64,000 bases of DNA, taken from assembly GCA_905250025.1 (NCBI GenBank), contig CAJNOJ010000406.1:16024-80023 (forward strand), in the 5' to 3' direction. This stretch comes from Adineta ricciae. Lineage: Eukaryota; Rotifera; Eurotatoria; Adinetida; Adinetidae. Under the pieces are notes generated by a model that ran no database searches, had not been told where the DNA came from, and saw only the letters and a list, made by a program, of their open reading frames with translations. Of this stretch, positions 7,641 through 45,003 are shown piece after piece. Every line of letters begins with the position of its first letter. The stretch's first letter is position 1. The translations under genes and the position numbers were made by a program.

Positions 7641-7772
7641 CGATAGTAAATTTTTTCAAATATAACAATGATTATATGTTATCGAGTGTATAATTATTGC
7701 GTATATTGTGGACAATGATAAATAAACAAAAGAAGAAAAGAAAGAGAAAAGTTTCGTATACACTCGTTAGTT

Positions 7773-12800: not shown

Positions 12801-13231
12801 GCCGCACAGTACAGAACGGTAGTTTCATAAGGGCTCGATTTATCCATTAGATGCGAATAATTTTCATGAAATGCTTCGATAACTTCCTGATTGCCATCCC
12901 ATGCTGCGTGAAACACATCAAGTGATGCTAGCATACCTTGAAGATCTTGTAAAAATGACTCTAACATATCGCTAGTAAACGAATCGGACAAGGTCTTATT
13001 TGTTTCATTGTAGCCGTATTCACGCAGAACGTTGAAAAGATAATTTTGGCATTGCTTTGATAATGAAGAAAAAGATTTGTTGGCGATTGTTTTAACTGCC
13101 TTTCGTAAATCATCGATAAGCTGCGGAGAATTAGTTTCGCCGTCGAATTGACTTATTGTATGAGAGACAGCATCGATTAGCAGTTGAAGACATTCCTTCA
13201 ACTTATTTTCGTCGTTGTTTCCAGTCGCCAT
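9844..13231 (-). CDS. Ankyrin / WWE-like / tandem macro / PARP catalytic protein (PARP14-like mono-ART), copy 1
   Basis: Five exons: 13231-11696, 11642-11574, 11524-10979, 10927-10144, 10091-9844; introns of 53, 49, 51 and 52 nt, all GT..AG. Total 3183 nt, 1060 aa. Domains in order: ankyrin-type repeats (about residues 105-215, with T-A-L-H-A-A-C-Y-Q-G-H), a WWE-like region (about 260-350, W-E-Y-K and W-I-R-C-R), macro domain 1 (about 537-690, A-F-P-A-I-G-C-G-G-Y-G), macro domain 2 (about 718-870, A-F-P-A-L-G-C-G), and a C-terminal ADP-ribosyltransferase domain (L-Y-H-G-C, N-R-S-F-A-G, Y-G-Y-G-V-Y-F, ending Y-A-E-Y-L-I-T-Y). His and Tyr of the H-Y-E triad are present; the Glu position appears to be Met, which predicts mono- rather than poly-ADP-ribosylation. 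Macro-PARPs of this type act in stress and antiviral responses in animals; the role here is inferred. Confidence 0.9.
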
Positions 13232-14211
13232 AAATTATGAATGAAGCAATATTTCTCTTACGACTCTCGGTGTCACTTTTATTAACGAAAAAGACAAAGA
13301 ATTGCAATGCATTGCATACAGTTGTTTTTGGAGAGAGGTTTTTTTTCTTCCTACCAGCCATTATAATAACAGTAACAGTCGACAAAATTTCCAACTTGCA
13401 TCGACGACAATACTCAGTCAAATCAAAAAGAAGGTCTTTTTCTTCTGTTATATGCTGCGAAGACGCTGAAACTTTCATTACCGAAAAACAAGAATCTACA
13501 GAGCGTCTCCTAGCTGAATACAAGCAGCAGCGATGATGTTCTTCAACATCAAAATATTCTGAACACGGCATTAACGAGGCCTTATGGAATAGACGAGATC
13601 CTGTCGATTCACTTTCATCACATTGGGTGAGATTTTTAGCATTTGTCGATATTGAAGTCCTGCAATGGTTGCTTTCTTTCCAAGAGTCCTTATTTATTTC
13701 TAAAATACACGAAAACAGACGCTGAAAACTTCCTTTGAATTAGACGATCGCAATACATCACTCTCTGCTTTTCCAGCAAAAAAATTTACAGCTCTAAATT
13801 CGGTCTTTCGCTCAATGAATATTTTCGTTTTCGAAATCATTGAACAGCAGCACATTCGTTCAGACAGATGAAACTCGACACAAAGGTCATAGCCATCGGT
13901 GTACAATTCAAATCATTCGATCAAATTAGCCAAACTATGTCTTGGAGTCGCAAAACTGATGACACCCTCTATTACTCGAAGATTATAAATAAAAGACGAA
14001 CTGAATATATTCAGATATATTCAAAAAAAAGTGATTGTAAAAATGTAGAAAATATAGGGATTATCTTTCATTCAAAAAAACAAATCAGAATATTTCAATG
14101 TGTTCGCCATCACTCTCGTCTATAAGAAAGAGAATATACAGATGCATAAAAAATGAAGTTAATGGTGCATATATCGAAATCATCAGTCAATAGAGTTGAA
14201 TTCTTCTGAGC
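13232..14211. other. Intergenic, possible relic
   Basis: Between the divergent 5' end of the PARP gene and the next minus-strand gene. A short minus-strand frame at 13700-13906 is also open in copy 2 (35464-35670) but has no recognised domain. I regard it as an unidentified exon or chance conservation. Confidence 0.35.
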
Positions 14212-15117
14212 TCATTCAAAAGAAAGTGACATTGTTTGTGATGCTGCATTGCATGACGCTGAGGCAATACCACCCCAATATCCACTAACCCAAGGACATG
14301 GTCTTATTGTATAGTAACCTGTTGTACAGCTACACGTAGATCCCGATGAAGTGATTTCATAACCACTGCTGCATGGCCATACACGCCAGGCTATTCCATT
14401 ATAAGTCAGGGCCATTGTAGTATTATAGCGTAAGGCAACTGCTAGAGCAGTGACAGTATTTGGATCAGTAACTGTGATGCCAACTGGATCATTTGAACCA
14501 TAGATCCGCATTTTCGAATAACTCGTACACGTCAAACTAGCAGCGAATTGTTGCCATGCTGTGCATTGAGCAGCTTGAGTTGTAAGGGCAGTGAAACTCT
14601 GTGAATATGTTACAGCACATGCTGCAAAGAATTTATGGAATAGAAGGGAATGGATCAGTTGAAATGAACTTACGTGATGCTGACGATCGATTGTCTAAAA
14701 CAAAAAACAGCGATAATGGTACACGTTTTTATAGAACTCAATCAACATAGTGCAGATAAGTGCCAGGGTTTTCCGATTATCTATCTTTCACCCAAACACA
14801 CACCTACCTAGTACTAATACGACGATGGGAATAATGATAGCTGCGAGTACCAACATACCCAATAGAACCAACAATTGAATGCATATGCAGCGTGGTACAC
14901 TCCATCTAAATATTCATTTTATAAAATTGACTTGCATAGATTGATGTGTTACCAACCTCGAACAAAATTTGGATGAAGCCGATGGAATACTTTGGAGACT
15001 ATTCTGAGAAATGATTTGGGAATTATGGAAGGAATGTTGAAAGCTATTTTGTAAGGAAGATGACGGATCAAGTTTTTTGTTTACTTTTTGCGTCGACTTT
15101 TTACTAGCGTTGATCAT
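14212..15117 (-). CDS. Single-pass membrane protein with Cys-rich ectodomain, copy 1
   Basis: Four exons: 15117-14957, 14905-14808, 14694-14674 (a 21-nt micro-exon) and 14621-14212; introns 51, 113 and 52 nt, GT..AG. 690 nt, 229 aa. The start at ATG 15115-15117 is the one shared with copy 2. Residues 1-53 are a Ser/Gln/Asn-rich tail beginning M-I-N-A-S-K-K. A hydrophobic segment (L-L-V-L-L-G-M-L-V-L-A-A-I-I-I-P) spans about residues 61-86. The ectodomain has paired cysteines, several G-S/W-G motifs and ends A-S-C-N-A-A-S-Q-T-M-S. Similar TM plus Cys-rich ectodomain proteins are familiar from bdelloids, but I know no named family or function. Splice frames were fixed by continuity of the protein and by the identical structure of copy 2. 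Confidence 0.8.
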
Positions 15118-15650
15118 CTTGATTTTTGTCTTTCTAACGAAAAAAAAACGAGAATATGTAAAAATCAATCCCTGTATTTCATAATTGTCAGAAAAGTTCG
15201 AATCTGTTGAGAGAAAAGATGAGAACATCGTTCTGTCACAAATTTCTGTTAACGAATGCTTCTAAGTGAAGTATTTTCATTTTTGCTTATTTTAAACTCG
15301 ATGATTTATTGACTTTTGCTAAGCGATGATGATTGTAAATTGTCGCATATTTATCTTTCTCTCGAAAAGAAAAAGAGTGCAGCAATACAAACAATTCGTC
15401 CGCCTTCATCATTCGATTTACACTACTTCGGTGGGCATAAGATTCTGTGCTGATGCGAATGCTGTTAGTATAACAAGGAGATTGTGTTTATGCACTTGAA
15501 AAAGCAAATATTCCGGCATTGTTATTTTTGTTTGTAAGAACATATGCAAATGTATATCTCTTCCTCCACGACGATTATTTATCGACCGAGAGTGTGAGAG
15601 TGATACACTTTATGATATGTTAAAGGCCTTTGTATCTGCCGTGTAAAAAC
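15118..15650. other. Intergenic, nothing recognised
   Basis: Lies between a minus-strand gene and a plus-strand fragment, so it would be a shared upstream region. No motif beyond AT-rich runs was found. Confidence 0.4.
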
Positions 15651-15905
15651 CGGACGAAGCAGGAACTAACAAAAACCTTCTTCTTCGAACGACTACCAAA
15701 ACATCTGCAAACTTTGGAAACTCTGGGTAAATTTTATGGTGACAGTGATGCATACTTTATTGATAATAAACTAACATGGGCAAATCTATTCTTTCGTTTA
15801 TTTGGTGAAACGATCTTTGGAATCGATGATCAATCTTTAGTTGATTTTGTATGGTTGAAACAAAATCGTGTTGAAATCAAACTGAAACACGATATATCTT
15901 TATGA
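15651..15905 (+). pseudogene. Glutathione S-transferase C-terminal fragment, copy 1
   Basis: An open frame of about 80 codons contains the GST C-terminal helical signature: L-P-K-H-L-Q-T-L-E followed by A-Y-F-I-D-N-K-L-T-W-A-N-L-F, corresponding to the F-V-G-D-x-L-T-W-A-D motif of sigma-type GSTs. There is no ATG in front and no N-terminal thioredoxin-fold domain with the glutathione-binding Tyr could be found upstream. Copy 2 has lost seven more codons and closes early. Best read as a relic; an unrecognised multi-exon gene is possible but unlikely. Confidence 0.7.
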
Positions 15906-16076
15906 CATGATTTCGATTGACACACATATTCTCATTCGCGTCTTCGAAATGCAATTCAATTTCATAGGGATTTAATCTGTTTGTGATGATTAGAGTATCG
16001 ATATGACGAAAAAGTGGAATATAAAACTTGGTTCGTTTTCTCGATACAAAATAGTTTTCGAAGACGAAGAGGCGTA

Positions 16077-16754
16077 ATGCAAATGTTCTTTCTAATAGGT
16101 CTCAGTATTTTGTTCGCAGCCAATCATGCTTATGCGTTAGATTGTAAGGTAGTGAAACAAGGTCAACATTTCATATCAACACTTCCATTCTATGGTTTCA
16201 AACAAGATCTTGTTCTTACAACACGCATCCGATTCAATGAATCTATGGCTCGTTATCTCTTTCCACCAACAGAAAGTAAAGGTCGTTCATGTTCATTATC
16301 CTGGAATCAAGTATGGGGTGCTACACGATGTGGTTATTTAACCAGCACTCAAATGGATTTAGATCGATTCGTATGGCGTCGTCCTAGTAGCTGTTTACAA
16401 TATGATTCTAAAGGATATGTTGTTAATGAATATGATGACTGTCCCGAAAAGAATCTCATCGAACTAGCTGCGTCTGCTTATGATAATGGTTTGAAGCCAT
16501 TTGAACATCCAGGTGTTTTACTGAAAGAATTTACAACGAAACTTCAAATCAATACATGGTACAATTTCAAGTTGATTTTCGAGGACACAAAAACAACCTA
16601 TCAACTGCTTGATGAGTCGAATCAACTTCTAGAAAGTCAATTTATTAACCATCATTCATGTGAACAATTTAATTTTGGTATGATACATGGTTTGTATTTT
16701 GGTGGAGAATGTCCAGCACCACAAGATGTTTCAGTTTGTTACGATTCATCATAG
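16077..16754 (+). CDS. Small secreted Cys-containing protein, possibly lectin/LamG-like, copy 1
   Basis: Single exon, 225 aa. The start at ATG 16077 is preferred over the upstream in-frame ATG at 16014 because it begins the signal peptide (M-Q-M-F-F-L-I-G-L-S-I-L-F-A-A) and because copy 2 has only this start. The mature part has about eight cysteines, probably in disulfides. The segment W-Y-N-F-K-L-I-F-E-D followed later by L-Y-F-G-G-E-C resembles the strand pattern of concanavalin/LamG-like jelly-roll domains (W-Y-x-V-x-V...), but the similarity is weak and no family is assigned. Differences from copy 2 are very few, so it is under constraint. Confidence 0.75.
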   Translation: MQMFFLIGLSILFAANHAYALDCKVVKQGQHFISTLPFYGFKQDLVLTTRIRFNESMARYLFPPTESKGRSCSLSWNQVWGATRCGYLTSTQMDLDRFVWRRPSSCLQYDSKGYVVNEYDDCPEKNLIELAASAYDNGLKPFEHPGVLLKEFTTKLQINTWYNFKLIFEDTKTTYQLLDESNQLLESQFINHHSCEQFNFGMIHGLYFGGECPAPQDVSVCYDSS

Positions 16755-17582
16755 TTGACTGAAAACTACACGTCAGAAATAAAATGAATCATCTAGATCG
16801 GCACGTACAGTTTTAAGCCTAAGCATCTAATTCAGAAAGATTCAAACGTTGTCTCATAGCCTTCATGAATAATTGTTGCAGATGAGAATACGATGTGCGA
16901 TGAAAACAGCATGCAGTGAAGGCTTTACTTTTGTTGTGAAATCTGACTATAAAACGTTTAAAATGTACTGACGAACTACATACCACCCTCGGTCATTCTA
17001 CAAACAAGATTTTATCTGCCAATAGTTCCATGAACACTCTTATAATCAACGGAATACTCGGGAATGTATAGAATAATATCAGACTCAAACACGATTGGAT
17101 TTTCCATGTATTACTTTACTTGTTTTAGCACAATAAATTTCTTCTATTCTCTTTTTATCCCTAACAAACACAACTGTCATGAACAATTAACTGTTTCAAA
17201 TGAATTTCTTTATCTATGAGCCTCGAATACTTTTGCTTGACCGTCTTCTTTGCTTGTTTACACAAAACATCTTACTGATCGGCCATATGAATACAAAAGA
17301 CAACCATCTTGTCGATGATGCATTTTTATCATCGTTCATTATCAAATATATCGTCGAAAGTTCCAGGTCAACTACTTGTTTATTCTATCTAACGGAATGG
17401 CTGTCCTTGTATGAATAGGAGAGAAGAGAGATTCTCTCGGATAATAATTAGTTCAAAGTCATGTTTATTTTCTTTTCTCTTCCAGCGTGTCTATATTCAT
17501 CTATTCTCGCTGTAGTGGACGAATAAATCTGCACTCTGATTTGTGTTATTTTGCCGTTCCTCTTTGACCTAGATTATCCGTA
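16755..17582. other. Intergenic, distal upstream region of the patatin gene
   Basis: AT-rich DNA conserved only in patches with copy 2 (38452-39213). A short plus-strand frame at 17200-17418 is not preserved in copy 2, so it is not treated as a gene. Confidence 0.4.
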
Positions 17583-17761
17583 TGAGTCATAACAAGAGAG
17601 AATTGCGTTCTTTTCTATCACGGGAGAAAAAGTCGATAACGCATTTCTCCCATGTTGTCGTTCTAATGAGTCATCATGTGTCCATATATAAATATATAAT
17701 GTGCGTCGTTTCTTTTACGATTTGATCTAAGATCAGAATATTGCATTGAACTTCACGAATC
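17583..17761 (+). promoter_or_regulatory. Candidate promoter of the patatin/oxylipin pair, copy 1
   Basis: Two perfect bZIP/AP-1-like TGAGTCAT octamers (17583-17590 and 17667-17674) flank an inverted repeat, GGGAGAAA at 17622-17629 and TTTCTCCC at 17644-17651. A TATA-like run of ATATATAAATATATAA lies at about 17684-17699, and the last 60 bases before the ATG are nearly identical to copy 2. Sites are seen directly; their function is inferred. Confidence 0.4.
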
Positions 17762-19492
17762 ATGGCTGAGCGTCTTATGGAAACGGCCAGTGAAATTTCC
17801 ACACATTTCCGCTGTGATCATTGTGGTATTACGATCGACGACGTGGCTTGGAGACAATGTAAAATTTGTAAAATATTCGATCTATGCCATACTTGTGGTA
17901 AAATGAAGTACAATCAACTATTAGCGAGTGTTCGTAATGATCATATGCAGAGACACACGGAACTTGGTGAGCTTGAATCGATTACAGACGATTGTATCGA
18001 AAAGATAGCCGTTGAACAAGCTGAAGCCAATAGTCAAACAATTCGAAACAAGATCAGAGAGGAACATTTGAATCGTATACAAAAGGAAAAGAAAATATCC
18101 AATGACTATGATATGTCAATCGTTATGGATGAATTAGAAAAACTGAAGAAAACATCATCATTATCATCGAAAGATATCGAATGGCATGGACTGGATTCAT
18201 TACTTGCAAGATATCATCTAGAAGCACATGAACGAAACATACGTATACTGAGTTTAGATGGTGGAGGTAAGACACTTATCAGTTCGATACACTGAATATT
18301 CGTTGCCTTTCATTTGTTAATAGGTGTGCGTGGCTATATGCCGATTAAGATTGTTTCTGAACTAATTGCACAAAAGTATCTGTCTCTGAATGAACCATTT
18401 GATCCACATAATGCAGAACATAAGGAAGCATTTCAAAAAATACAAGGAAAATTTACTGAGCAATTCGATTATTTCGTTGGTACGAGTACAGGTGGACTTA
18501 TCGCCTTTTGCTTAGCGATGAACTACAGTGTCTTGAAGATGATGGACATCTATGCGGATTATTCATATTATTTCTGGCGCAATTATCTCGGACCAATTAT
18601 TTATTCGAAATATAATCCAGCTCGTATTCATCAAAAGATCGACGATATTATCAACAGTCTCTCGTTCAAAAATGGAACAAAATTATCAGCAGAAAACGCG
18701 ACATTGCTTGATATTCGCAATATCTTAAATCAGGACGATGTTATCACTAATGATCAAGTTCAATTACGCGCTTCTAATCATGGAAATCTATTAGAGTTCG
18801 TCGATGACACAAACAACATCGACAGCGCCAATCGCGTTACCAATGACTACAGTTTTCATCGAATCTATCGTGAAAAAGTCTTACTCATTACTTCATACAA
18901 CACAACAACAAATAGCATTACGATATTCAATACAAGTTACGCTCCACATTGGAATTATCGTATTGCTGATGTGTTGAAAGCGACTATGGCTGCTCCGACG
19001 TATTTTCCACCAATGGAAATCTTTACCGGAAAGAAAGTCGATGGTGTCTTTCGAAAAGATGCGCAGTCAGAATTATTCATCGATGGAGGTGTATTCGCTA
19101 ATGATCCCGAACTATCAGCACTGTGGGCCATTCGAATGCAATGGAAAAAACCGGCGAACTATCATTTGCTTTCGATTGGCACTGGTTGCTATAAGACAGC
19201 ATTATCCTCGTCGACTTGGGGTGGTTATCTCGGATGGATAATGAACAAAGGTTATTTAGTAAACACATTGATGGATGCACCGCGTAGTTTCATCGAAATT
19301 ATTGGAAGTAATCTGGCAAAATTCAGCAACATCAGACGAATGAAATTGAATTACAATATGAAACGATCAATGGCTTTGGACGATGGTGAATTCGTTCGTG
19401 TATTCGATAAAGAATGGGAACAATTAAAAACCGAAGAAGACTATAAAGCTTTTGTTTATTTCTATGATAGCTATATCGTTAAACGAATTTGA
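17762..19492 (+). CDS. ZZ-type zinc finger plus patatin-like phospholipase, copy 1
   Basis: Two exons, 17762-18266 and 18324-19492, with a 57-nt intron (18267-18323). 1674 nt, 557 aa. N-terminal ZZ-like zinc finger: C18-x2-C21, C33-x2-C36, C42-x2-C45, then a pair of histidines in H-M-Q-R-H. A charged helical linker follows. The patatin domain has the oxyanion loop D-G-G-G-V-R-G (from residue 166, formed across the splice junction), the nucleophile elbow G-T-S-T-G with Ser223, and the catalytic D-G-G with Asp422. Patatins are Ser-Asp dyad lipid acyl hydrolases that release fatty acids from glycerolipids. The apparent stop codon after S-S-I-H lies inside the intron and is not a break. The next gene starts 50 nt downstream. 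Confidence 0.93.
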
Positions 19493-19542
19493 TTGAATAT
19501 AACTATAAAACGTTCTTTTTTGTAGATAATTTTTCTTGACAA
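19493..19542 (+). promoter_or_regulatory. Intercistronic splice acceptor (putative trans-splice site), copy 1
   Basis: Only 50 nt separate the patatin stop from the next ATG. The gap holds a strong acceptor, a T-run ending TTTTTTGTAG at 19516-19525, 17 nt before the ATG. I found no cis donor that joins the two frames. Bdelloids are known to use spliced-leader trans-splicing, so this fits a downstream operon gene; that reading is inference. Confidence 0.55.
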
Positions 19543-22500
19543 ATGGGACTTAATTTTTCTACACCGGAGACTCTATTCAAACTGAACCATCTGATCATCA
19601 TAGGATGGGTTGCATTGATTCTTGTACCGTTTCACAAAATATCCAAATACTTGACTCTTCTACCTGCGTTAATATTATCAATCGAATATACTCTTATCTT
19701 ATTTTCTCGAGATACAACAAGTCTTCGATTGAATTTCTCGCATTTATCTGCATGGAAAACGTCGTTCAACGATGCATTCATGATTATTAGTGCAAGAAAT
19801 CATTTTTCCGTAATGGATCTTTGGGTCGCTCGATGGATGGTGTATGATTTTTATACTGGATACACATTTGCTTACAACGGTACAAATAAATCGTGGACAT
19901 TCGGAAGAGTTCTTTTGACAAGCGTTCTTTTAATCACTTATCTAGTCGCACCATTTGGATTCTTACTTTACAATTTGATGAAATATTCATTTTTGAAGAA
20001 ATATCGAACTGAAGATCGAATAGTTATCAAACGTGGTCAAGGTTTCCTTGGAAATTTTCATACACAAAAGCGATTGTTTAGTCCTCATATCGTTCGATTC
20101 GCTGATAAACTACCGGAACCATTACGTACAGTTTATTATTTTGTACTTGGTCTCGTTGGGTTGAGCATTTTATTCACGATTGTCCTACCTTCGTATCTCG
20201 TTCTGATTATCTACTGTCGAATTGTTTATCGAACACATTTAACATCGACTTCGAAATCATTGCCGAGTAAAAAGGTTCCGGAATTTGTTCGTAATGTTAC
20301 TGCAACAATGCGATTATCATTAATCAGTACACCTCTCGACAAACGAAACCGCATTTGGCATTTAAAATTTCTTCTCTTACAGTTTGCCACATTCATCGAA
20401 TATATCGTCAATTCTTCGCAACCGGCTTATTTATTCAAAGCGTTGGAAGATTACTTTCGTCAAGTGTATAATTCTCCGTATTATGTCTTGGGCAATGGAA
20501 TAGCGGTGAATTCGCATCAATTAGTTAAACGCTACCTTCAAGATATTCGGCCACGTAAAGATTACGAATTATTAGCATGGGAAGTTTCACAATCCTTAAT
20601 AACATTTTCTGATTTTACAACGATTTTCTTGTCAACAGACGATCCGGATGTGAAATTAGGTCGAACGATTGTATTTCAATGGTTACATGCATTTCCGCAC
20701 AACTTGCAAAATGGCAATTTCGAAACCAATTCGCAACTGGCGCGAATTCTTCCACGCCAAATGAATGAAAAACCGACTGCAGATGTAGTTTATCAATCCG
20801 TCGGGGAAGTATTATTTTTCCTGGCAACAAGCGGCGAATTAACTAAAGATGAACGAGCAGCATTTATCGAGGGTGTTAAAAACCCAATGATATTCTTTCC
20901 GAATTGGTTCAATTTCTTACTGAATGGTCATTCCTTGGAACGCAAGAATCTACGTAGTTATTATACTCTTCTTCAAGCTTTTGCACGGTATGAAAATGGA
21001 CCTGCTCTACAAGCTGCTTTTGCAGCGGCAGAGAAGAAGAAGTCTCACGAAGAAGTTTTAAAATTTCTCACCGTCGTCTTTTGTATAGCAGGAAGTCCAG
21101 CACCGGCGAAATTAGCAGTGACTGTTATCGATCGATTATGGGCAGACAAAGAAAAAAATGTTCGTTTATTCAAAAAGAATCCACATAATTTCATTAAAGA
21201 ATGCGCTCGATTGGATAAAGTCGTTCCAACGGTAAACGTCTTGGCAACTGATGAAATCGCCGCGGAAATCGGGAACTCTTTTCAAAGTCAAAATATCAAA
21301 ATTCCTGAAAATACACCCATTCACTGTTCTCTCGTCAACGCCAATCGTGATGAAACAGTTTTTCAAAATCCTGATGAGTTCTTACCGGATCGACCTGATT
21401 TGAATAAAATTATCGTTTGGAACGGCGTTGAAGAAGATGTGACCAATCCGGATAAAAGCAAACGACCTATTCGTTACTGTCCCGGACATGATTTAGCTAT
21501 TGATGTTATTCAATTCGTTGCTGAACGATTTTTACCGATCATCGACGATGCAGATGACGAACAAAAACAGAAGAAGGAAGATACGATAGGTAAGTTTTGA
21601 TGAAACTCATCACCAAAGATTTTTTTCTCAATTGTATATAGAATCTGCATCACATGACAAAGAAGAGCAGCAGAAGGACAACAATGAAAAAGATATGGCC
21701 TTGTTTGATCGAAAAACTCGAAAGTTAAACGAAATGGAAAAGAAACGTTGTTGGAAAACATTAGACACATACACAAAATTGGTTTATCTCTTAATGAAAA
21801 CAGCTGTGAGTGAATCCAATCAATCTCCATCACGTGCAATCGATATTAAACCACCCTTGACTTTCCCTGTGGAAAAACTCGGTATATTTCGAATTGATAT
21901 GGCGAAATTTATCCCATCATGGGATGAAGATGAGCCGAATGGCTCGGGTTTATCAAGAAAACTTGCTCGTTGGTTAGTCAACAGTACTCTATGGGATTTT
22001 TACGACTGTTTAGCCGAATTCGACACATTAGAACAAGCATTTGCCTGGCGTGCAAGGGTCTTTCCTGAATTGCCGTTACCAAATGTTGTCTATACAGACA
22101 TGTTTTCCGACGAAGCAATGAGTCGCTTAGCATTTTTCGGCTGTGCTTGTCATTACACGCAACGGATTGGTAATGGATGGCAGCCTGGTTGTGGGATTCC
22201 TGAACAAAAATTGCTGACGAATGCAGTGTATGTTAATGATATGACTGGTTTATCGATCTTTCGTGTTCGAAAACCATTTGAACGGTACGGAGCAGCGGTG
22301 TATTTCGATAAAGATTTTCAATTAATTGCCATTTACTGGTGTCATGCTAATCGTTTGGTAGAAAAAAATGATCAATTTTGGGAACATGCAAAATATGTTT
22401 GGCGTTCATCATTCTTCGCTTATGTCACTATATGTGATCATCTGATTGTCACACACATGATCGAATGTAATGCTTTCGTGAGTGCAACACGAAAATGTTT

Positions 22501-23371
22501 GCCAAGTGATCATCCATTACGAGTATTTCTGAAACCATTTACATATCATACAGTTTCAGTGAATTATCAAGCTGCAGTGTCACTAGTCAATCGACGTGGC
22601 TTAGTACATCGCATATGGGCATTTGATTATGATGAATTTTTGAAAGTGTGTGATTATATATCAACAAATTATAAATTTCGATTGTTAACGGAATTTATCT
22701 CTCCATCGATGTCGCCGAAGAATAATCATGTCAGTCGAGAAGAATGGGACAAGGTTTATCCGATTTATTCAGATACGAAACAATTCTGGAGAATTATTCA
22801 GCAATATGTTGCAAATTTCTTTCATATAACTTATCACCTTCGCGTCGAAATCGATCCTGATGATGACAATGATGAAAAACGTGTTGATAAGGACGTCTGC
22901 GATGATAAATTACCCGTCGATTCCTACATGATGGACTTTATCGATGACTTATGCAAGCAACTTGGAATACCTGGTATTACTTCACTAAAGCGGTTCGTTG
23001 ATGTTCTATCACAACTGATTGCTGATAGTACAGGTATTCATGAACATGTCGGTCAGATTAGTGATTATATGATTGATCCGAGATTTATTGGTGCCAAGTT
23101 ACAAGAAGGAAGAGAAATGCAGAATATCCAAACATATACACAAATACTGATTTTGACTGTTGTTACAGGCTTACGTATGCCGGGAATAATGGAAGATTGG
23201 AGTCATTTAATCGAACATAATCAAGATTACGAAAAGAATCTCAAGAATTATCACGATTTCAAAAGTCAATTACGCAAACTTTCGAAATGTGTGGATGAGC
23301 GTAATAAAACACGAAGATATCCGTTTCAGTCATTTAACCCAAGATTTATTGAATGTTCAACATCGGTTTGA
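19543..23371 (+). CDS. ABA4-like / cytochrome P450-like / lipoxygenase-like triple fusion, copy 1
   Basis: Exons 19543-21589 and 21642-23371 with a 52-nt GT..AG intron; 3777 nt, 1258 aa. Residues ~15-160 are a multi-pass membrane domain with D-L-W-V-A-R-W-M-V-Y-D-F and L-V-A-P-F-G-F-L-L-Y, the pattern of ABA4/DUF4281 proteins. A further hydrophobic stretch lies near 198-230. Residues ~230-680 are P450-like: E553-C-A-R556 is the helix-K ExxR and R-Y-C646-P-G is the heme-thiolate loop. Residues ~720-1258 are lipoxygenase-like: D-H-L-I-V-T-H gives the H-x4-H iron ligands (H949, H954), and P-S-D-H-P-L and Y-P-I-Y..W are typical. The second iron pair is unusual (H-E-H-V-G-Q, H1149/H1151) and the C-terminus is Val rather than Ile. 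Likely chemistry is fatty-acid peroxidation then P450 rearrangement of the hydroperoxide, on membranes. AATAAA follows at about 23488. Confidence 0.88.
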
Positions 23372-26300
23372 ATCAATCCGTAACATTTCTCACTAACTCA
23401 AACTATATTAGAATTAGATTATTAGATTTTTTTTATCACAAGAGATAGAATCTCGTTTTTTTGTTCTCTTCACATATATATATTCGAAATAAACTAAACT
23501 CCTTCTACCATCGAAAGTTTAACTAAATACAAAGAATCAATGTTGTCATCTCTTCATGATGAACAGATAATAAAGTATTCTTGTCAAATCCCTTTTATAT
23601 GGAAATATCAACTCCTGAAATTACACTCTCGTACTGTATATATCGAGTATAACTCCAAATTATTCGATAGTTCCATGTAAGGCTGATCGGTATTCTCAAT
23701 CAGACGTTTCACATCCACAAGATGATTGAAGAACACCTTGGTCGATAGGAAAAGCTCGTTAAGTGTTGTGCTATATTGGATTGGATAAAAAATTCCGCTT
23801 TCGGTAACACATTGGTAGTGGTAAAGAAGTGCATCGTGAGTCGATCAATCGGGTTTTTAGTGATCTCATTTGTCAGCTTGCAGAGATCTGCAAAGAATCG
23901 AAACTTAAAATACGCTATATTGCGACAATCTAGAGTCAGATGCAGTATGCTATGCCATTTTCTTTCCACCAAGCCACTCTGATATACTGAATGTAATATT
24001 GGCGTCAATAAACCCAATGTTGTATAAGGAATTGTCGTGGTGAAACAAGAACGGTTAACTGTTCTAGAAAACATACTTTGTAATTCATTGTATTCAGTCA
24101 GCGATGACTTTTCTCTTGTGATTATCATTTATTTCACGATTGAGTGAGATGAAGAGAGCAATTGTTAGAAATGTGTCTACAAAGAATGAAGAAAGAGAAT
24201 AAAAGGATACACTCATACCGAAGCACGACAATCAATGAATTGCCATGAACGCACATGCTATTCTCTTCGAACTTTCCAGGAAGAGCAGTGTCGGCCAGGC
24301 ATAGTCTAGCTTTGAAGAAGTAACTTATGGAGATTGGTGGTAAAACTTAACATATCTATCAATGATACTAAATAAATGTATGTCATCATCTTCTGTCGCT
24401 TAACGTCTTTTTCTGCTCGCGCATTGACAGTTTTGAATAAATTGAACGATTTTATTGAGTGAATCGACTGTTGCTTGATTGTGTGTCGTAGCAATGGATG
24501 AGCTCACAGTTAGTAATGTACTGTTTTGCACAAAGAATATTTACCTCGTCCGGTTCGAGCATGAGTGAATCAGTGCCAAACGTATAAAATAATTTTGATC
24601 AGAAATGTCGTGATCAAGAAGAGTAGAATGGTACGATCCCCATAAAGATTAATGAAAAGAGCAATCGCATGAAACACATTCTTCTGATCCTTTTTTGTAT
24701 ATGTGCAAAACGAAGGAGAACCTCTAGTGAAATATTCTAATTACATAGTCAATGTTTGCTGACGAAGAAGTTAGATATATGGTTTTTGATAGGATTCGAT
24801 TCTTCCTTTAAAAATAAGCAAAACAAACAATGCAAGATCGTACGGACTTGATTAAGTATTGGAAAATATTTGGACAAGGCATGTAAACATTCGGCTTTAT
24901 ACAAGTAATCAAGAGTATCTTCATATTCAGCGTCGAGAATACTTACACGCTGTAAGAAAACCACCAGGCGCATATTCAGTTTCGAAAGGATATGTCCATG
25001 ATTTAAGGTCTGTCATATCTGGATTATTTTTGCCGCCGATCAGAGTAAAGACAGCTTGTTCACTTGTTTTGGATTTGCCGCAGTAATGTGTTTGGAAAAA
25101 TGTTTGAATAGACTTGTCAATTTCTTTTATTATCAGTATAGCATCTTATTGATTCTCATGCTTATGATACACGCTAAAGCATTGATGTTCAGGACCGATA
25201 TGAGACGATGCGCTCTAGTGACTGTTTCTAAATAGTTAAGAAATGAAATTGTTTTTGTTGATGCACTATTTTCGAAAAGGTCAATTATTACGGTAGTCTT
25301 TTACTGAAATTGTTTTGCTGTATGAGGTTGGACGACGGTGAATTCATATCTACCGATATGCATCAGATTCGAATAAGTTAGTTTTCGTGAAAACGAACAC
25401 AAGCTAGACTAGCTAAGTTTTGACAATCGTTCAACAGATATCGATTTATCCTTGGTGAGTAATTACAAGGCTTCGATTCACTGTTCGCTTAGAAAAATAC
25501 TTGAACAATTTGAATGGAATGGAACACTATGGTTAACAAAGTCTTTCAGAAGTATTGTAGTTTTCGAACATGGGCACAACAATGTCTGGTTATGATCTTG
25601 ATATAGTTGATCGAAACGAGAACGAGTGATGTTCGAGACCAGAATCGTATTACTTTTGTTTTTGTTAGAACGGTTGAAAAGAAAACACGGTAAAATGAAA
25701 TAGAGATGAGTTCATTAGTTGTTTCAATTCAGTCTCAAGATACGGGTGATACTTCTTGTGATATAGTAGATATAATTTTCTGTTAGAAGCTCAATTTGCG
25801 AGCAGACTCGAAAATGGTGTGATTGGATGAAGTGAATCAGATATACAGAAGCAAGAAATCGTGTTCGACGCTTCGTTCTGAAATGAGAGAAAATCGTACA
25901 TCGATTCTATTTTCACCTTCTTTCAAATCCGAGGAGAAAAAAAGTAATTTGCAAGATCAACGACATACGTACCGATCTAATGTTGTAATCAGTCTGTATT
26001 TGATCGAACTATCATCTAGTAGATCGGATACATTAGTCGATTGTATTGAAATATCCGTCCAATTGACCAGTAAAGAGTTACACAACGAAGCGGAGCACTA
26101 CTGCTATCCTAGATCGTCTGACGATTGTTGTATACTACAACAGCATCATCATCAGGATCAGAAGCAATTAGAGATTACATTGAAATCTCAATGGTTTCTT
26201 TTATAAATACGTATTTCATTCCAGAAAACAACGTTTTTCTAAGATATTCGTAAGAGACGAAATTGACTTAGAATTCACTAAATCCCTTTTGTTAACTTTG

Positions 26301-27420: not shown

Positions 27421-29623
27421 TCCTGATGAATAAAACATAAGGTACGATTTAAAAGAAAAACTAAGTTTATCTTTACTGATGTGCTCGAACTATTCGTTGA
27501 TGAAGATTGTCATCGATTAGGTTATGGATATCCTCATGTGAGCCAGTAACGAAAAATTGGTTCTTAAAAATACAATAACAAAAGTGGACTATATCGAGGA
27601 ACTCGTTCGCTATCATAGATACTTCGATGAATATGTAATGTTGGACAGCTTGGATCATTTCTATGTAAGCGCTATGAACGGAGACTTCGGTGATTTTTGC
27701 ATCTGATGGCCATGGTCCCATAATTGCTCGAATACACTAAACATCGACTGGGAAAAGATTACTCTCGAGAAAAGCTTTCCAGTTCGTGTCATTAAGCTCG
27801 TTTTCGTCATCATACGTTTTCGGTAGTAGAAACGGATACGAATTATTCCCATGGTATTTTACTTTTCTCGTTATGACAGCATTCCATCGCTGACTGAAGC
27901 GCTACGGCGTACGAAGGACTGTTGTTCGATCAATATAATCTGAATTTCATTTCATTCAGAATAGGTAAACGAAGACATAAACGATAGATTAACCTTCATT
28001 ATACTTTTCAAGTGACTGAAATGGTTTCACATAAAGATCGACATAATCTTTTCCGATGAACTATCGATTTTTTTCTATTGACGAAAAGCAAATCCGATGG
28101 CGTTTCATGTGTTTCTTCGATTACGTCATTACAGAAATAGATCTAACACAGTATTGCACTCACGGTTTGCCTTTTTGCGGTATAATTGAAGTTCTAATGT
28201 TTTCATCACCTAGGTTAACGTGGTTGAGAAAAAGAGGTAAATGTGGAATATTCTACCGTAGTTATATCTCCACTCACCGCATACACGCATCATCCCATCA
28301 GTCAAATCATAGATCGATTCGAATGAGAAATGCAACTTTCTGATGGGACCATAAGAGAACTACGCGTTTTGTATGTAGACCATTCAAGTCCATAGTAAAT
28401 GGCACATCTTTGTAAACAATCGCGTGCACACTGACACCTGCATCCTACGATATTCAAAGAGAATAATCAGATTAGTCGATGAAAAGCAAAGGCGGCATAC
28501 AGTAGTTTTCCCTAAGAGAATATCTAGTCGAAATGTCTCGTTTTCCGATGGTCTGATTAACATGATTTCTGGTGAAATCCGCCAACCACTAATAAATAAT
28601 TTACTTCAATACCATTTTTAACTCCTGTACGATGAAAACCTAATGAAAATGTAAAACCATGATCAACCAGTATGGGAAAACGTAATACATTTGTATCTGG
28701 TCGGATATAAGCTGTATAAGTAGCTTTAATAACAAACTATCTACGACAATGTACATTTCAATCTGAAAAGCCTCAGACTCGAAACATACGTACTCTCGAT
28801 GATGAATCAGAGACGAGTTTAAAGCGGATGGTAAATGAATCAAACGACGAGGGCCACGGTAGTCACTGTGAGCTCGTTTGAGTAAATAACCTTCTTTCTG
28901 GCTCTCGCTTATATACCGTGGATGAAGGAAAGAAAACTGACATCGAAAATTTCACGCTACGAAAATAAATATCGAATAATCTAATCGATAAGTATTCTTA
29001 CTGTTGCTAAATGATGACGAAATTTTCGATGTTCAACGATTCGATCGAGATACTCCTTGAACGTTTCCTGTTGAGAATGACAAGGGCAACTATCACAAAT
29101 CGATTTTCAAGAAATTTACACGACGTTTCTGAATGGAAGCACCATTCAGCATTACCATTCGGTCCGTTCTCGTCGGAAAACATGGATTCACTTCGCTAGT
29201 ATTGCTAACTTGCTCATGTCGATGATGAAAATAACTGACGGATTTCTTCATTTCCACTTCGACAAAGTGGACTAGTGCTCGATGCAACACATGAAAGTCT
29301 GAATAACGTTTGTGAATAATCTTTTCACTGGTGGATATATCAGATGAGACCTACAAGTGCGGATTTAAAAAGTTCGCCGAAGTACGTTCAGCAGTTATTG
29401 ATATCACTTGAACAAGAATATTGATGGAAAATGCTTCGTCAGTATAATCATACAGATGTGCAATAGTAAACTGATTTTTCACATTCAACGAACTTTGTTG
29501 GAGATCTTCATTGGTAGATTCTTTGAAGTCGTTACCAGGATATGGTAGAAATTCAACTTGAAGAGTTAAATCTGCAAATTCAGTAATCGGGCGAAATAAA
29601 ACACTGATATTATCGTGTGTCAT
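27421..29623 (-). pseudogene. Phospholipase D (PX-PLD1/2 type), decayed copy 2
   Basis: Same fragments as the copy at 5008-7640, with a clearer N-terminal piece (29351-29623, F-T-I-A-H-L-Y-D-Y-T-D) that resembles the start of a PX domain. It also has S-G-W-R-I-S-P-E near 28590, corresponding to the W-W-L-S-P-E region, and the C-terminal block at 27473-27721 where the canonical N-Q-F-F-V-T is retained across an intron and R-I-V-R-A-H-Q follows. Stops interrupt the frames and the HKD motifs are not found. The C-terminal third is missing because the sequence ends at the N. Confidence 0.8.
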
Positions 29624-29753
29624 CGATAGTAAATTTTTTCAAATATAAAAATGATCACATGTTATCGAGTGTAATTATTGCGTATATTGTGTACAATGAT
29701 AAATAAACAAAAGAAGAAAAGGAAGAGAAAAGTTTCGTATACATTCGTTAGCT

Positions 29754-30596
29754 TTATTGGCAGAGATCGAATACAAAGAGCAGACAAAGTAAAATACATG
29801 CAGAATAAGATGTGATCGATGACGAACTCGTAGAAATTTTATTGAGGAATGTTTTGACACTCTCATGGACTTGGTTGATAGCTGCGACATTCTCTAGATT
29901 TGAGTAATTGGCGCCTGCTGATACAAAACCGTGCTTCATGTTGGCATATGTTTCATACTGACATTGTCCAGATACCTGTGAGTTTGCTGATTGTTCGATA
30001 GCAGTCGAAATGTTTGGACGCAATGGTGGATCATCGCCAGCAGCTATAAAGAGTACTGGTCGCTGTAAATTCTTTACCTCATCTTCAGTCAACCATGCGC
30101 CGTGAATAGAAATGCCTGTAAAGAACAAATCCGACAGATTTGAACAAGCACGAGCCACTTGTAGGCCACCCCAGCAGAAGCCAATTACAGCAATCCGACG
30201 CGATGGCGATGATGTACTTCGAAGCCAAGTAGCAATAGTTCTCAAGTCAATAGATACTTGAGACCAGTTACCAACCTGAGCAAGCCATGCAGCGAAATGA
30301 GGTATTGTTGTGGGCAATGAATTGCCTCGGTAAAAATCCGCCATCACAACCTGTACTTCGTGCTCGGCTGCGAGCCGATCACAGAACACACGCGTTTGTG
30401 TAATATTGAATCCATAAATGTCGTGGAAAACGATAATCGATAGATTTTTCTCAGAATTTGTCTTATTACCAACTGTATAGACATCCATGTCTTCTACACG
30501 AACGACTTCACCTTTCGGATACGTCTCATTCCACAAACTCGATGATTGACAAGTTGAAAAGCCCAGTATGAGAAATACTAAACACAAAATATGCAT
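29754..30596 (-). CDS. Secreted dienelactone hydrolase-family alpha/beta hydrolase, copy 2
   Basis: 280 aa, same length as the copy at 7773-8615. Start at ATG 30594-30596 opening the signal peptide M-H-I-L-C-L-V-F-L-I-L. G-F-C-W-G-G, A-A-G-D-D and K-H-G-F are all retained, so both copies should be active. Substitutions relative to copy 1 are scattered (for example in the loop after Y-T-V-G-N-K and near the C-terminus), consistent with purifying selection on the catalytic core. The hydrophobic C-terminal tail suggests GPI or membrane anchoring. Confidence 0.88.
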   Translation of the reverse strand: MHILCLVFLILGFSTCQSSSLWNETYPKGEVVRVEDMDVYTVGNKTNSEKNLSIIVFHDIYGFNITQTRVFCDRLAAEHEVQVVMADFYRGNSLPTTIPHFAAWLAQVGNWSQVSIDLRTIATWLRSTSSPSRRIAVIGFCWGGLQVARACSNLSDLFFTGISIHGAWLTEDEVKNLQRPVLFIAAGDDPPLRPNISTAIEQSANSQVSGQCQYETYANMKHGFVSAGANYSNLENVAAINQVHESVKTFLNKISTSSSSITSYSACILLCLLFVFDLCQ

Positions 30597-37368: not shown

Positions 37369-37541
37369 CGGACGAAGCAGGAACCAACAAAAATAATCTT
37401 CATCGAACAACTACCAAAACATCTGCAAACTTTGGAAACTCTGGGCAAATTTTATGGCGATGGTGGTGCATACTTTATTGATAATAAACTAATATGGGCA
37501 AATCTATTCTTTCGTTTATTTGGTGAAACGATCTTTAGTTA
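37369..37541 (+). pseudogene. Glutathione S-transferase C-terminal fragment, copy 2
   Basis: Shorter version of the fragment at 15651-15905: L-P-K-H-L-Q-T-L-E and A-Y-F-I-D-N-K-L are kept. After G-E-T-I-F a deletion of about 21 bp relative to copy 1 brings a stop codon into frame. This supports a relic that is still decaying. Confidence 0.7.
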
Positions 37542-41172: not shown

Positions 41173-44100
41173 ATGGGACTTAATTTTTCTACACCGGATA
41201 CTCTATTCAAACTGAACCATCTGATCATCATAGGATGGGTTGCATTGATTCTTGTACCGTTTCACAAAGTATCCAAATACTTGACTCTTCTGCCTGCGTT
41301 AATATTATCAATCGAATATACTCTTATCTTATTTTCTCGAGATACAACAAGTCTTCGATTGAATTTCTCGCATTTATCTGCATGGAAAACGTCATTCAAC
41401 GATGTATTCATGATTATTAGTGCAAGAAATCATTTTTCCGTAATGGACCTTTGGGTCGCTCGATGGATGGTGTATGATTTTTATACTGGATACACATTTG
41501 CTTACAACGGTACAAATAAATCGTGGACATTCGGAAGAGTTCTTTTGACAATCGTTCTGTTAATCACTTATCTAGTCGCACCATTTGGATTCTTAATTTA
41601 CAATCTGATGAAATATTCATTTTTGAAGAAATATCGAACCGAAGATCGAATAGTTATCAAACGTGGTCAAGGTTTCCTTGGAAATTTTCATACACAAAAG
41701 CGATTGTTCAGTCCTCAGATCGTTCGATTCGCTGATAAACTACCTGAACCATTACGTACAGTTTATTATTTCGTACTTGGTCTCGTTGGGCTAAGCATTT
41801 TATTCACGATTGTCCTACCTTCGTATCTCGTTCTGATTATCTACTGTCGAATTGTTTATCGAACACATTTAACATCGACTTCGAAATCATTGCCGAGTAA
41901 AAAGGTTCCGGAATTTGTTCGGAATGTTACTGCAACAATGCGATTATCATTAATCAGTACACCTCTCGACAAACGAAACCGCATTTGGCGTTTAAAATTT
42001 CTTCTCTTACAGTTTAGCACATTTATCGAATATATCGTCAATTCTTCGCAACCAGCTTATTTATTCAAAGCGTTGGAAGATTACTTTCGTCAAGTATATA
42101 ATTCTCCGTATTATGTCTTGGGCAACGGAATAGCAGTGAATTCGCATCAATTGGTTAAACGCTACCTTCAAGAAATTCGGCCACGTAAAGATTACGAATT
42201 ATTAGCATGGGAAGTTTCACAATCCTTGATAACATTTTCTAATTTTACAACGATTTTCTTGTCAACGGACGATCCGGATGTGAAATTAGGTCGGACGATT
42301 GTATTTCAATGGTTACATGCATTTCCGCACAACTTGCAAAATGGCAATTTCGAAACCAATTCGCAGCTGGCGCGAATCCTTCCACGCCAAATGAATGAAA
42401 AACCAACCGCAGATGTAGTTTATCAATCCGTCGGGGAAGTATTATTTTTCCTGGCAACAGGCGGCGAATTAACTAAAGATGAACGAGCAGCATTTATTGA
42501 GGGTGTTAAAAACCCAATGATATTCTTTCCGAATTGGTTCAATTTCTTACTGAATGGTCATTCCTTGGAACGCAAGAATCTACGTAGTTATTATGCTCTT
42601 CTTCAAGCATTTGCACGGTATGAGAATGGGCCTGCTCTACAAGCTGCTTTTGCAGCAGCAGAGAAGAAGAAGTCTCACGAAGAAGTTTTGAAATTTCTTA
42701 CCGTCGTCTTTTGCATAGCAGGAAGTCCAGCACCGGCGAAATTAGCAGTGACTGTTATTGATCGATTATGGGCAGACAAAGAAAAAAACGTTCGTTTATT
42801 CAAAAAGAACCCGCATAATTTCATAAAAGAATGCGCTCGATTGGATAAAGTCGTTCCAACGGTAAACGTCTTGGCAACTGATGAAATCGCCGCGGAAATC
42901 GGGAACTCTTTTCAAAGTCAAGATATCAAAATTCCTGAAAATACACCCATTCACTGTTCTCTCGTGAACGCCAATCGTGATGAAACAGTTTTTCAAAATC
43001 CCGATGAATTCTTACCGGATCGACCTGATTTGAATAAAATTATCGTTTGGAATGGCGTTGAAGAAGATGTGACCAATCCGGATAAAAGCAAACGACCTAT
43101 TCGTTACTGCCCCGGACATGATTTAGCTATTGATGTTACTCAATTCGTTGCTGAACGATTTTTACCGATCATCGACGATGCAGATGACGAACAAGAACAG
43201 AAGAAGACAGATACAATAGGTAAGTTTTGATGAAACTCATCACCCCCAAGATCTTTTTCTCAATTGTCTATAGAATCTGCATCACATGACAAAGAAGAGC
43301 AACAGAAGGACAACAATGAAAAAGATATGGTCTTGTTTGATCGAAAAACTCGACAGTTAAACGAAATGGAAAAGAAACGTTGTTGGAAAACATTAGACAC
43401 ATACACAAAATTGGTTTATCTATTAATGAAAACAGCTGTGAGTGAATCCAATCAATCTCCATCACGTGCAATCGATATTAGACCACCATTGAATTTTCCT
43501 GTGGAAAAACTCGGTATATTTCGAATTGATATGGCGAAATTTATCCCATCATGGGATGAAGATGAACCGAATGGTTCGGGTCTATCAAGAAAACTTGCTC
43601 GTTGGTTAGTCAACAGTACTCTATGGGACTTTTACGATTGTTTAGCCGAATTCGACACATTAGAACAAGCATTTGCCTGGCGTGCAAGGGTCTTTCCTGA
43701 ATTGCCGTTACCAAATGTTGTCTATACAGACATGTTTTCCGACGAAGCAGTGAGTCGCTTAGCATTTTTCGGCTGTGCTTGTCATTACACGCAACGGATT
43801 GGTAACGGATGGAAGCCTGGCTGTGGGATTCCTGAACAAAAATTGCTGACGAATGCAGTGTATGTTAATGATATGACTGGTTTATCGATATTTCGTGTTC
43901 GAAAACCATTTGAACGGTACGGAGCAGCGGTATATTTCGACAAAGATTTTCAATTAATTGCCATTTACTGGTGTCATGCTAATCGTTTGATAGAAAAGAA
44001 CGATCAATTTTGGGAACATGCAAAATATGTCTGGCGTTCATCATTCTTCGCTTATGTCACTATATGTGATCATCTGATTGTCACACACATGATCGAATGC

Positions 44101-45003
44101 AATGCTTTCGTGACTGCAACACGAAAATGTTTACCAAGCGATCATCCATTACGAGTATTTCTGAAACCATTTACATATCATACAGTTTCAGTGAATTATC
44201 AAGCTGCAGTGTCGCTTGTTAATCGACGTGGCTTAGTACATCGCATATGGGCATTTGATTATGATGAATTTTTGAAAGTGTGTGATTATATATCAGCAAA
44301 TTATAAATTTCGATTGTTACCGGAATTTATCTCTCCAACGATGTCGCCGAAGAATAATCATGTCAGCCGAGAAGAATGGGACAAGGCTTATCCGATTTAT
44401 TCAGATACGAAAGAATTCTGGAGAATTATTCAGCAATACGTGGCAAATTTCTTTCATATAACCTATCATCTTCGCGTCGAAATCGATCCTGATGATGACA
44501 ATGATGAAAAACGTGTTGATAAGGACGTCTGCGATGATAAATTACCCGTCGATTCCTACATGATGGACTTTATCGATGACTTATGCAAGCAACTTGGGAT
44601 ACCTGGTATTACTTCATTGAAGAGATTCGTTGATGTTCTATCACAACTGATTGCTGATAGTACGGGTATTCATGAACATGTCGGTCAGATTAGTGATTAC
44701 ATGATTGATCCGAGATTTATTGGTGCCAAGTTACAAGAAGGAAGAGAAATGCAGAACATTCAAACGTATACACAAATACTGATTTTAACTGTTGTTACAG
44801 GCTTACGTATGCCGGGAATAATGGAAGATTGGAGTCATTTAATCGAACATAATCAAGATTACGAAAAGAACCTCAAGAATTATCAAGATTTCAAGAGTCA
44901 ATTACGCAAACTTTCGAAACGTGTGGATGAGAGTAATAAAACACGAAGATATCCGTTTCAGTCATTCAACCCAAGATTTATTGAATGTTCAACATCGGTT
45001 TGA
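41173..45003 (+). CDS. ABA4-like / cytochrome P450-like / lipoxygenase-like triple fusion, copy 2
   Basis: Exons 41173-43219 and 43274-45003 with a 54-nt intron; 1258 aa, same as copy 1. An in-frame upstream extension to 41119 exists only in this copy and lies across the splice acceptor, so the ATG at 41173 is preferred. ABA4-like membrane segments, ExxR (E-C-A-R), R-Y-C-P-G, D-H-L-I-V-T-H and H-E-H-V-G-Q are all present. Differences from copy 1 are roughly 2% of residues and none falls on a catalytic motif, so both copies should be functional and the three-part frame is being maintained. Confidence 0.88.

Follow-up and report, generated by a model that had tools for sequence, protein, structure and literature searches.

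An ABA4-like, P450-like and lipoxygenase fusion protein in a bdelloid rotifer: a probable membrane-tethered oxylipin synthase

The fusion gene and its neighbourhood

The window is the whole analysed stretch of 64,000 nucleotides of DNA from the bdelloid rotifer Adineta ricciae. On its forward strand lies W1 (19543-21589 joined to 21642-23371), a gene whose frame, free of internal stops, encodes a 1258-amino-acid protein composed of an ABA4-like, a P450-like and a lipoxygenase (LOX) part. Exon 1 (19543..21589; aa 1-682 plus one base) specifies the ABA4-like part, a further hydrophobic segment and the P450-like part, and exon 2 (21642..23371, stop codon at 23369-23371) specifies a linker and the LOX domain. 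The 52-nt GT-AG intron between them (21590..21641; GTAAGT...TATAG) falls within the P450/LOX linker. A preliminary description had proposed a three-part fusion with LOX and P450 identity for two of its parts. This proposal holds: the coordinates are exact, the frame is open, the catalytic motifs are present, W1 exceeds the Pfam cut-offs for all three parts, and uninterrupted paralogues exist.

The ABA4-like domain (aa 12-143; 19576..19971) matches profile positions 3-127 of the 127 of PF14108 (E 7.4e-9; 36.5 bits against a cut-off of 27), and its motif HF..MDLW.ARW lines up with cyanobacterial ABA4-like proteins (n=5). The P450-like domain (about aa 261-660; 20323..21522) is delimited by profile searches, alignments and a tree; PF00067 itself matches aa 550-623 (E 2.9e-5; 23.4 bits, cut-off 22.8). 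In the exon-2 protein, the Lipoxygenase profile PF00305 covers residues 241-407 (E 3.5e-9; 36.2 bits, cut-off 23.6). Characteristic motifs start at aa 94 (WVARW), 553 (ECAR), 644 (RYCPG) and 949 (HLIVTH, the H-x4-H motif). The PLAT domain that is N-terminal in LOXs of the animal and plant type gave no Pfam match (E<=10 in the window copy, E<=1 in the other copies), and no reductase domain is among the Pfam matches of the fusion proteins.

A Kyte-Doolittle scan picks out hydrophobic segments at aa 10-28, 37-55, 123-141 and 205-223, in keeping with the earlier suggestion that the protein is probably attached to a membrane. The strongest of them (aa 205-223; 20155..20211) lies between the ABA4-like and P450-like parts; a fifth (aa 511-529) is the I-helix of the P450.

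A patatin-like phospholipase gene precedes W1 on the same strand (17762..19492). It has a 57-nt intron (18267-18323, read from sequence) and may have further exons upstream; an apparent premature stop in its frame was rejected, its position falling within this intron. The stop codon of the patatin gene is 50 nt before the ATG of the fusion gene, and the intergenic stretch (19493..19542, forward strand) contains TTCTTTTTTGTAG, ending at 19525, which may serve as a trans-splice acceptor. The arrangement recurs in the window at W2, a tandem copy of the fusion gene that also encodes 1258 aa (41173..45003, forward strand; exons 41173-43219 and 43274-45003, intron of 54 nt) and is likewise preceded at about 50 nt by a patatin copy (39392-41119; PF01734, E 1e-15; intron 39897-39953). 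No patatin gene was found beside the paralogues L009 and L010 (about 2.9 kb of upstream sequence), nor in L011 or L012.

Paralogues and purifying selection

Five intact copies of the fusion are present in the genome, and their domain order is constant. L009 (1203 aa), L010 (1204 aa) and L011 (1394 aa) are continuous frames, the W1 intron being missing from the three intact paralogues of C386 and C350. Because these three frames are uninterrupted, the fusion does not depend on the assumed intron; the possibility of split genes or a mis-read intron is rejected, since the intronless paralogues carry all three parts. A sixth copy, L012, in which the ABA4-like and LOX ends are visible and the middle and 3' end run into N, was excluded from the analyses. 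All LOX matches in this genome (6/6) are fusion genes of this type.

The LOX profile scores above its cut-off of 23.6 bits in all five intact copies (window copies: 36.2 and 38.3; other three: 29.6, 29.6 and 28.1). PF00067 exceeds its cut-off of 22.8 in three of the five (23.4, 23.6 and 30.1 bits) and falls below it in L009 and L010 (18.2 and 19.7 bits). The score of PF14108 is 36.5, 34.6 and 27.2 bits in three copies (cut-off 27); L009 and L010 have no ABA4-like Pfam match at E<=1 and still align with the window protein across the P450-like and ABA4-like parts.

The P450 and LOX parts are under purifying selection, with dN/dS of about 0.08-0.12: 0.075 for P450 and 0.094 for LOX between W1 and W2, 0.107 and 0.122 in the C386 pair, and 0.112 and 0.087 between W1 and C386b.

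Metal ligands and bacterial relatives

The fusion protein retains catalytic residues. In a ligand alignment of 93 rows (frames with E>=1e-5 or of up to 520 aa were left out, as were L069 and L058, which are present as L151 and L152), the three histidine ligands of the LOX metal, H-x4-H and a later His, are found in 5/5 bdelloid and 88/88 bacterial rows. In W1 they are H949 and H954 of HLIVTH (22439..22456) and H1149 of HEHVG (23039..23053), where the place of the Asn ligand is taken by Gly and there is an extra His at +2. Gly stands at this fourth ligand place, without the usual Asn (or His or Ser), in 5/5 bdelloid copies; the bacterial rows have Asn (70/88), Ala (17/88) or Gly (1/88). Since the place varies within the family, Gly is not decisive against LOX. 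The fifth ligand position, the C-terminal residue, is usually Ile (68/88 bacterial rows, with Val in 2/88 and other residues in 18/88); it is Val in 5/5 bdelloid copies (Val1258 in W1; 23366..23368), and the C-terminal carboxylate is kept. The Gly and the terminal Val, each in 5/5, make the metal site of the bdelloid LOX unusual.

The bdelloid and bacterial LOXs align profile to profile over 404 columns (probability 99.4, E 4.6e-21). The bdelloid LOX profile scores best with a LOX on a Nostoc plasmid (62 bits), followed by the neighbours of P450s termed type 2 (49) and type 1 (32-45); as a source of the bdelloid LOX, no group stands out among the bacterial LOXs searched. Horizontal acquisition of the parts, which the preliminary description had raised as possible, gained no support from this bacterial comparison.

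By sequence comparison, the bdelloid P450 is kin to P450s adjoining LOX genes in cyanobacteria. A profile query built from three bdelloid rows, L069 and two L058 rows, run against 386 cyanobacterial genomes, yielded strong relatives (type 1; E<1e-140) in nine genomes, seven of them outside the query and two having supplied query sequences; the match in one (G172) has a stop codon listed within it. In 9/9 the next large upstream frame on the same strand is a LOX, from overlapping to 455 nt apart. At the places fetched for type-2 P450s, LOX lies directly downstream, which is the bdelloid order, in 3/6, these three being near-copies by score; no LOX was seen within the 11-12 kb examined at the other three. 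In whole-genome searches at E<=0.001, matches of the bdelloid profile are confined in G001 (with seven P450 matches) to the LOX and its adjoining P450, and in G002 to the LOX and two adjoining P450s.

A tree of 33 rows (bdelloid 3/5, type-1 6/10, type-2 5/10, generic 19/21; L062 was omitted, as were L179 and L185, which are without the heme-motif pattern) splits the bdelloid and both LOX-neighbour types from 19 other cyanobacterial P450s (100/98). Its branches are long, and the alliance of the bdelloid P450 with type 2 is weak (87/47). Profile-profile comparison aligns the bdelloid P450 with type 1 over 323 columns (probability 98.0, E 1.7e-13; identity 21-24%) and with type 2 over 161 columns (probability 96.5, E 8.2e-10). 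These LOX-P450 pairs contain the closest P450 relatives found, but they are separate genes where the bdelloid has one chain, and their LOXs have Asn and a C-terminal Ile (12/12 rows) in place of the bdelloid Gly and Val.

Outside Cyanobacteria, no strong P450 relatives were found at a limit of 1e-8 among 377 genomes of one phylum (that of G004) and 398 of another (that of G006); partial matches occur in 13 and four genomes, respectively (best 3e-10). One partial non-cyanobacterial match lies within a 916-aa frame, the viewed 675-aa part of which ends in an ordinary P450 heme motif. A P450 adjoining LOX on a Leptospiraceae contig (L062; E 0.00064) was set aside as an ordinary P450, with the heme loop FGRGPRSCMG. 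The P450 alone matched 21 plasmid records (best E 0.03), and the whole fusion gene only distant LOXs in three plasmid records (20-22% identity). Whole-gene pattern scans matched 35 stretches of GTDB contigs and 60 of viral contigs and confirmed none, a weak negative, the patterns having come from non-catalytic stretches. A bacterial origin of the whole gene was dropped, there being no all-domain relative in GTDB, viral contigs or plasmids, on negative evidence that is weak.

Proposed function and significance

The fusion is probably a membrane-tethered oxylipin synthase, with LOX and hydroperoxide-isomerase P450 on one chain, and a self-contained synthase of this kind, as the preliminary description had proposed, is the likeliest function suggested by the retained catalytic residues and the kinship with LOX-neighbour P450s. 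The C-terminal LOX would add O2 to a polyunsaturated fatty acid, and the P450 would isomerise the resulting hydroperoxide, without O2 or reductase and most likely by homolytic O-O cleavage, to an allene oxide, an epoxy alcohol or a lyase product. Membrane anchoring would fall to the ABA4-like part with the next hydrophobic segment, the hydroperoxide may be channelled, and the upstream patatin-like phospholipase, if co-expressed, may release substrate (at the two window copies only).

An extension of this reading, which seems unlikely, makes the ABA4-like part catalytic: it would open or rearrange a P450-made epoxide within the bilayer, completing a three-step synthase on one chain. Its DL..RW signature is kept, and plant ABA4 has been linked to the formation of neoxanthin, in which an epoxide becomes an allene. 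Yet dN/dS of the ABA4-like part is 0.245-0.259 in three pairs, two to three times as high as in the other parts; two of the five copies are without the Pfam match; and the LOX loci searched, cyanobacterial LOX-P450 pairs included, hold no convincing ABA4 frame (best E 0.88).

That the P450 is a heme-binding or scaffold relic beside an active LOX, the product being a hydroperoxide or hydroxy acid, is rather unlikely. The P450 profile scores are marginal in some copies and the I-helix is atypical: FC[IVL][AG][GA][SA]PAPAK in 5/5 (FCIAGSPAPAK in W1, aa 513-523; 21079..21111), with Pro-Ala in place of the acid-alcohol pair of monooxygenases on alignment to CypX (3nc3), and aligned to IHIAGTAGTS of the LOX-neighbour P450s. 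But the motif is near-constant, the K-helix ExxR (ECAR or ETAR; in W1 ECAR, aa 553-556; 21199..21210) and the heme-thiolate Cys loop YCPG (Cys646; 21475..21486) are kept in 5/5, and dN/dS is as low as in LOX. Moreover, hydroperoxide isomerases themselves show an atypical I-helix, and a nonpolar distal-heme-site residue is found in thromboxane synthase and in 8S- and 9S-allene oxide synthases (excerpts of PMC13049297). A monooxygenase or peroxygenase that hydroxylates fatty acids, by way of hydroperoxide or an outside reductase, is unlikely. A weak NCBIfam similarity to CYP152 peroxygenases speaks for it (window copy E 0.0012, L009 0.037, L011 0.00043). Against it, the CYP152 scores are 12.6-19.0 with a cut-off of 600, other P450 models score alike, and both the acid-alcohol pair and a reductase domain among the Pfam matches are missing.

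Isomerisation by the P450 would be the reaction type of the CYP74 clan (plant AOS, HPL and DES; metazoan and algal epoxyalcohol synthases), whose members convert hydroperoxides of fatty acids and need neither O2 nor reductase (PMC10813956, in part). Membership of the bdelloid P450 in that clan is not supported: the Asn of the plant CYP74 I-helix motif FNxxGG (PMC13049297, in part) is missing in 5/5 copies. A PDB search with the P450 profile (E<=10) likewise brought up no CYP74 or allene oxide synthase name among the best 60 of 64 matches. The W-NG-E and longer heme loop of the bdelloid P450 presumably resemble the CYP74 loop; CYP74 enzymes are, to our knowledge, stand-alone.

Fusion of a dioxygenase to the consumer of its unstable product arose before, in fungal heme dioxygenase-P450 and in catalase-LOX proteins. 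The fungal fusions are not known to carry an ABA4-like part and have the dioxygenase first in the chain. They (PpoA and linoleate diol synthases, 8/9-allene oxide synthases, 10R-EAS; excerpts of PMC13049297) likewise join a dioxygenase and a hydroperoxide-isomerising P450 in one chain, but with a cyclooxygenase-related heme enzyme as dioxygenase where the bdelloid has a lipoxygenase. The fusions of Capnella coral, Anabaena and Acaryochloris likewise combine a heme enzyme converting hydroperoxides with a C-terminal LOX (PMC5617202 and PMC11719350, each in part), but their heme domain is catalase-like and that of the bdelloid P450-like.

LOX and P450 are separate proteins in plants and side-by-side genes in some cyanobacteria, whose pairs offer a simple test bed for the chemistry, with two genes each. 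A covalent LOX-P450, found here in an animal and including a membrane part as well, would add one more solution. No publication on bdelloid lipoxygenases was found by title or abstract opening in the literature searched. Since all LOX matches found in the genome belong to this fusion, a single assay would show which LOX-derived oxylipins the animal makes; and if the three-step reading is true, the only LOX type found in the genome would carry all of its LOX-derived lipid signalling.

The fusion gene and its copies

The preliminary description had placed the fusion frame in two exons, 19543-21589 and 21642-23371, with a 52-nt GT-AG intron between them and 1258 aa encoded, and these coordinates are exact. 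Its three-part make-up is borne out by profile search: ABA4-like (PF14108), P450 (PF00067) and lipoxygenase (LOX; PF00305) matches each exceed the Pfam cut-off, the P450 match narrowly. Sequence searches of the PDB pair the last third of the protein with lipoxygenases (best 6ns2, E 1.2e-16, four-copy profile) and its middle with P450s (CypX 3nc3, E 4e-5). The predicted folds of the parts rest on sequence profiles.

Six fusion-type loci are found in this genome (130 Mb, 1033 contigs): two in the window (W1 and W2) and two on each of contigs C386 and C350. Three of the C386 and C350 copies are uninterrupted frames (1203, 1204 and 1394 aa) with the ABA4-like, P450 and LOX parts arranged as in the window. 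The intron interrupts the P450-LOX linker and is present in the window pair only. All 6 Pfam-LOX matches and all 4 ABA4-like matches in the genome fall inside fusion loci (an exon-by-exon search, so that these counts are lower bounds). The sixth copy (L012, on C350, ~1834-5734) has N in its middle and, past HEHVGHVG, no longer follows the family, N being present there too; it is either truncated or mis-assembled.

Pairwise dN/dS is 0.075 for the P450 part and 0.094 for the LOX part of the tandem pair W1/W2, 0.107 and 0.122 for the C386 pair, and 0.112 and 0.087 for W1 and one C386 copy (C386b), compared with 0.245-0.259 for the ABA4-like part of the same three pairs. Between W1 and the C350 copy C350a, the ABA4-like part gives 0.40; the P450 and LOX parts yield no ratio because silent sites are saturated. 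The ABA4-like/P450/LOX fusion is genuine, conserved and selected. No description of this architecture was found among the PMC titles and abstract beginnings listed.

Residues of the LOX and P450 parts

One-against-one comparison of the bdelloid and bacterial LOX profiles gives an alignment of 404 columns (probability 99.4, E 4.6e-21). All 93 rows (5 bdelloid, 88 bacterial) have the three His ligands. The fourth ligand position is Gly in all five bdelloid copies, whereas in the 88 bacterial rows it is Asn in 70, Ala in 17 and Gly in 1. A further His, two residues beyond the third, is found in 5/5 bdelloid as against 0/88 bacterial rows. The C-terminal residue is Val in every one of the five, as is known for manganese LOX. 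Pfam detects no PLAT domain in the fusion proteins. At what we take to be the Coffa site, all five copies have Ala. By the usual rule Ala at this site yields an S hydroperoxide, and this points to an S hydroperoxide as the predicted product of the bdelloid LOX.

In the P450 part, ExxR and the heme Cys are kept in 5/5 copies. The I-helix pattern across copies is FC[IVL][AG][GA][SA]PAPAK, and alignment to CypX puts Pro and Ala at the places of the acid and the alcohol. According to PMC13049297, the distal heme position is occupied by Ile in thromboxane synthase (IAGYEI), by a nonpolar residue in 8S/9S allene oxide synthases and by Asn in plant allene oxide synthase, where it seems not to be essential; plain comparison with these motifs places Ala of the window's IAGSPA at that position. 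An I-helix lacking the acid-alcohol pair, with Ala at the distal site, fits a putative hydroperoxide isomerase with homolytic O-O cleavage rather than a monooxygenase. Candidate products would be an allene oxide, an epoxy alcohol or aldehydes. Membership of CYP74, whose P450s convert fatty-acid hydroperoxides with neither O2 nor a reductase (PMC10813956), is not claimed.

P450s beside cyanobacterial LOX genes

Pfam scores the K-helix-to-meander stretch alone in the P450 part, and its kinship was therefore examined by other routes. The bdelloid P450 profile was run on frames from 80 LOX loci of GTDB, the best of 107 found, and from three plasmid LOX loci; among the matches listed, 4 of 16 frames reached E<=1e-3. 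Three of these (one in L069, two in L058) lie behind a cyanobacterial LOX gene in the same orientation, and the fourth (L062) is an ordinary P450 adjoining a Leptospiraceae LOX.

Since these loci had been preselected for LOX, two further searches were made free of that bias. In the whole genomes of L069 and L058, which have 7 and 9 P450 matches respectively (some of them fragments), the bdelloid profile matches just LOX and its adjoining P450 or, in L058, its two adjoining P450s. A profile of three bdelloid rows with the L069 and L058 P450s was then used on 386 cyanobacterial genomes, and reached E<1e-140 in nine, seven of them absent from the query; in one (G172) a stop lies inside the matched stretch. 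In 9/9 of these neighbourhoods the next large upstream frame on the same strand is a LOX (overlapping to 455 nt apart). These type 1 gene pairs are L138-L144, L151 and L152, the last (genome G002) with two P450s after the LOX. Among the PMC titles and abstract beginnings listed, none describes cyanobacterial LOX-P450 gene pairs.

A more distant P450, type 2 (~455-465 aa; motif GFHSVGDRSAGRICPGKD in relatives), was fetched at six places. LOX lies directly downstream, which is the bdelloid order, in three (L146-L148, near-copies by score); at the remaining three, the fetched stretches showed no LOX. Among LOX-centred loci with type 2, LOX comes first in L054 and L078, and the strands differ in L055 and L056. 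A nine-row type 2 profile gave no clear match in the PDB. In a 33-row tree, for which the tool issued a long-branch warning, the P450s of the bdelloid fusion and of the two LOX-neighbour types split from 19 other cyanobacterial P450s (100/98), with type 2 nearest to the bdelloid P450, weakly (87/47). The three bdelloid rows are the sole eukaryotic P450s in this tree, which is therefore silent on the donor.

Neighbouring genes and predicted function

Upstream of both window copies lies a patatin-like phospholipase gene (PF01734; E 1e-15 at the second copy) whose stop is 50 nt from the fusion ATG; the stretch between them holds TTCTTTTTTGTAG, resembling a 3' splice acceptor. Bdelloids trans-splice, which makes it plausible that the two genes form an operon whose products would free and then oxidise fatty acids. 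In the stretches fetched around the copies on C386 and C350, no patatin-like phospholipase gene was found. The whole block is enclosed in a tandem duplication of ~18-19 kb (window 6166-25079 and 28050-46494, pieces 82-96% identical) that carries the fusion, patatin-like, dienelactone-hydrolase-like and ankyrin genes. Within a second tandem duplication (49693-53134 and 57835-61416, 90-93%) is a frame for a rhodopsin-like receptor (Pfam 7tm_1, below the cut-off with E 1.7e-5). Elsewhere, on a Rhodococcus qingshengii plasmid (L029:2399-5476), an acyl-ACP thioesterase-domain gene precedes a LOX gene by 24 nt, possibly another pairing of substrate release with LOX.

The bdelloid fusion has relatives in design in fungal dioxygenase-P450 fusions (PMC13049297) and in coral and cyanobacterial catalase-LOX fusions (PMC5617202, PMC11719350). 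That the ABA4-like part is itself catalytic seems rather improbable. The fusion is most likely a LOX plus a hydroperoxide-isomerase P450, the two enzymes on one chain that would be held by a membrane anchor.
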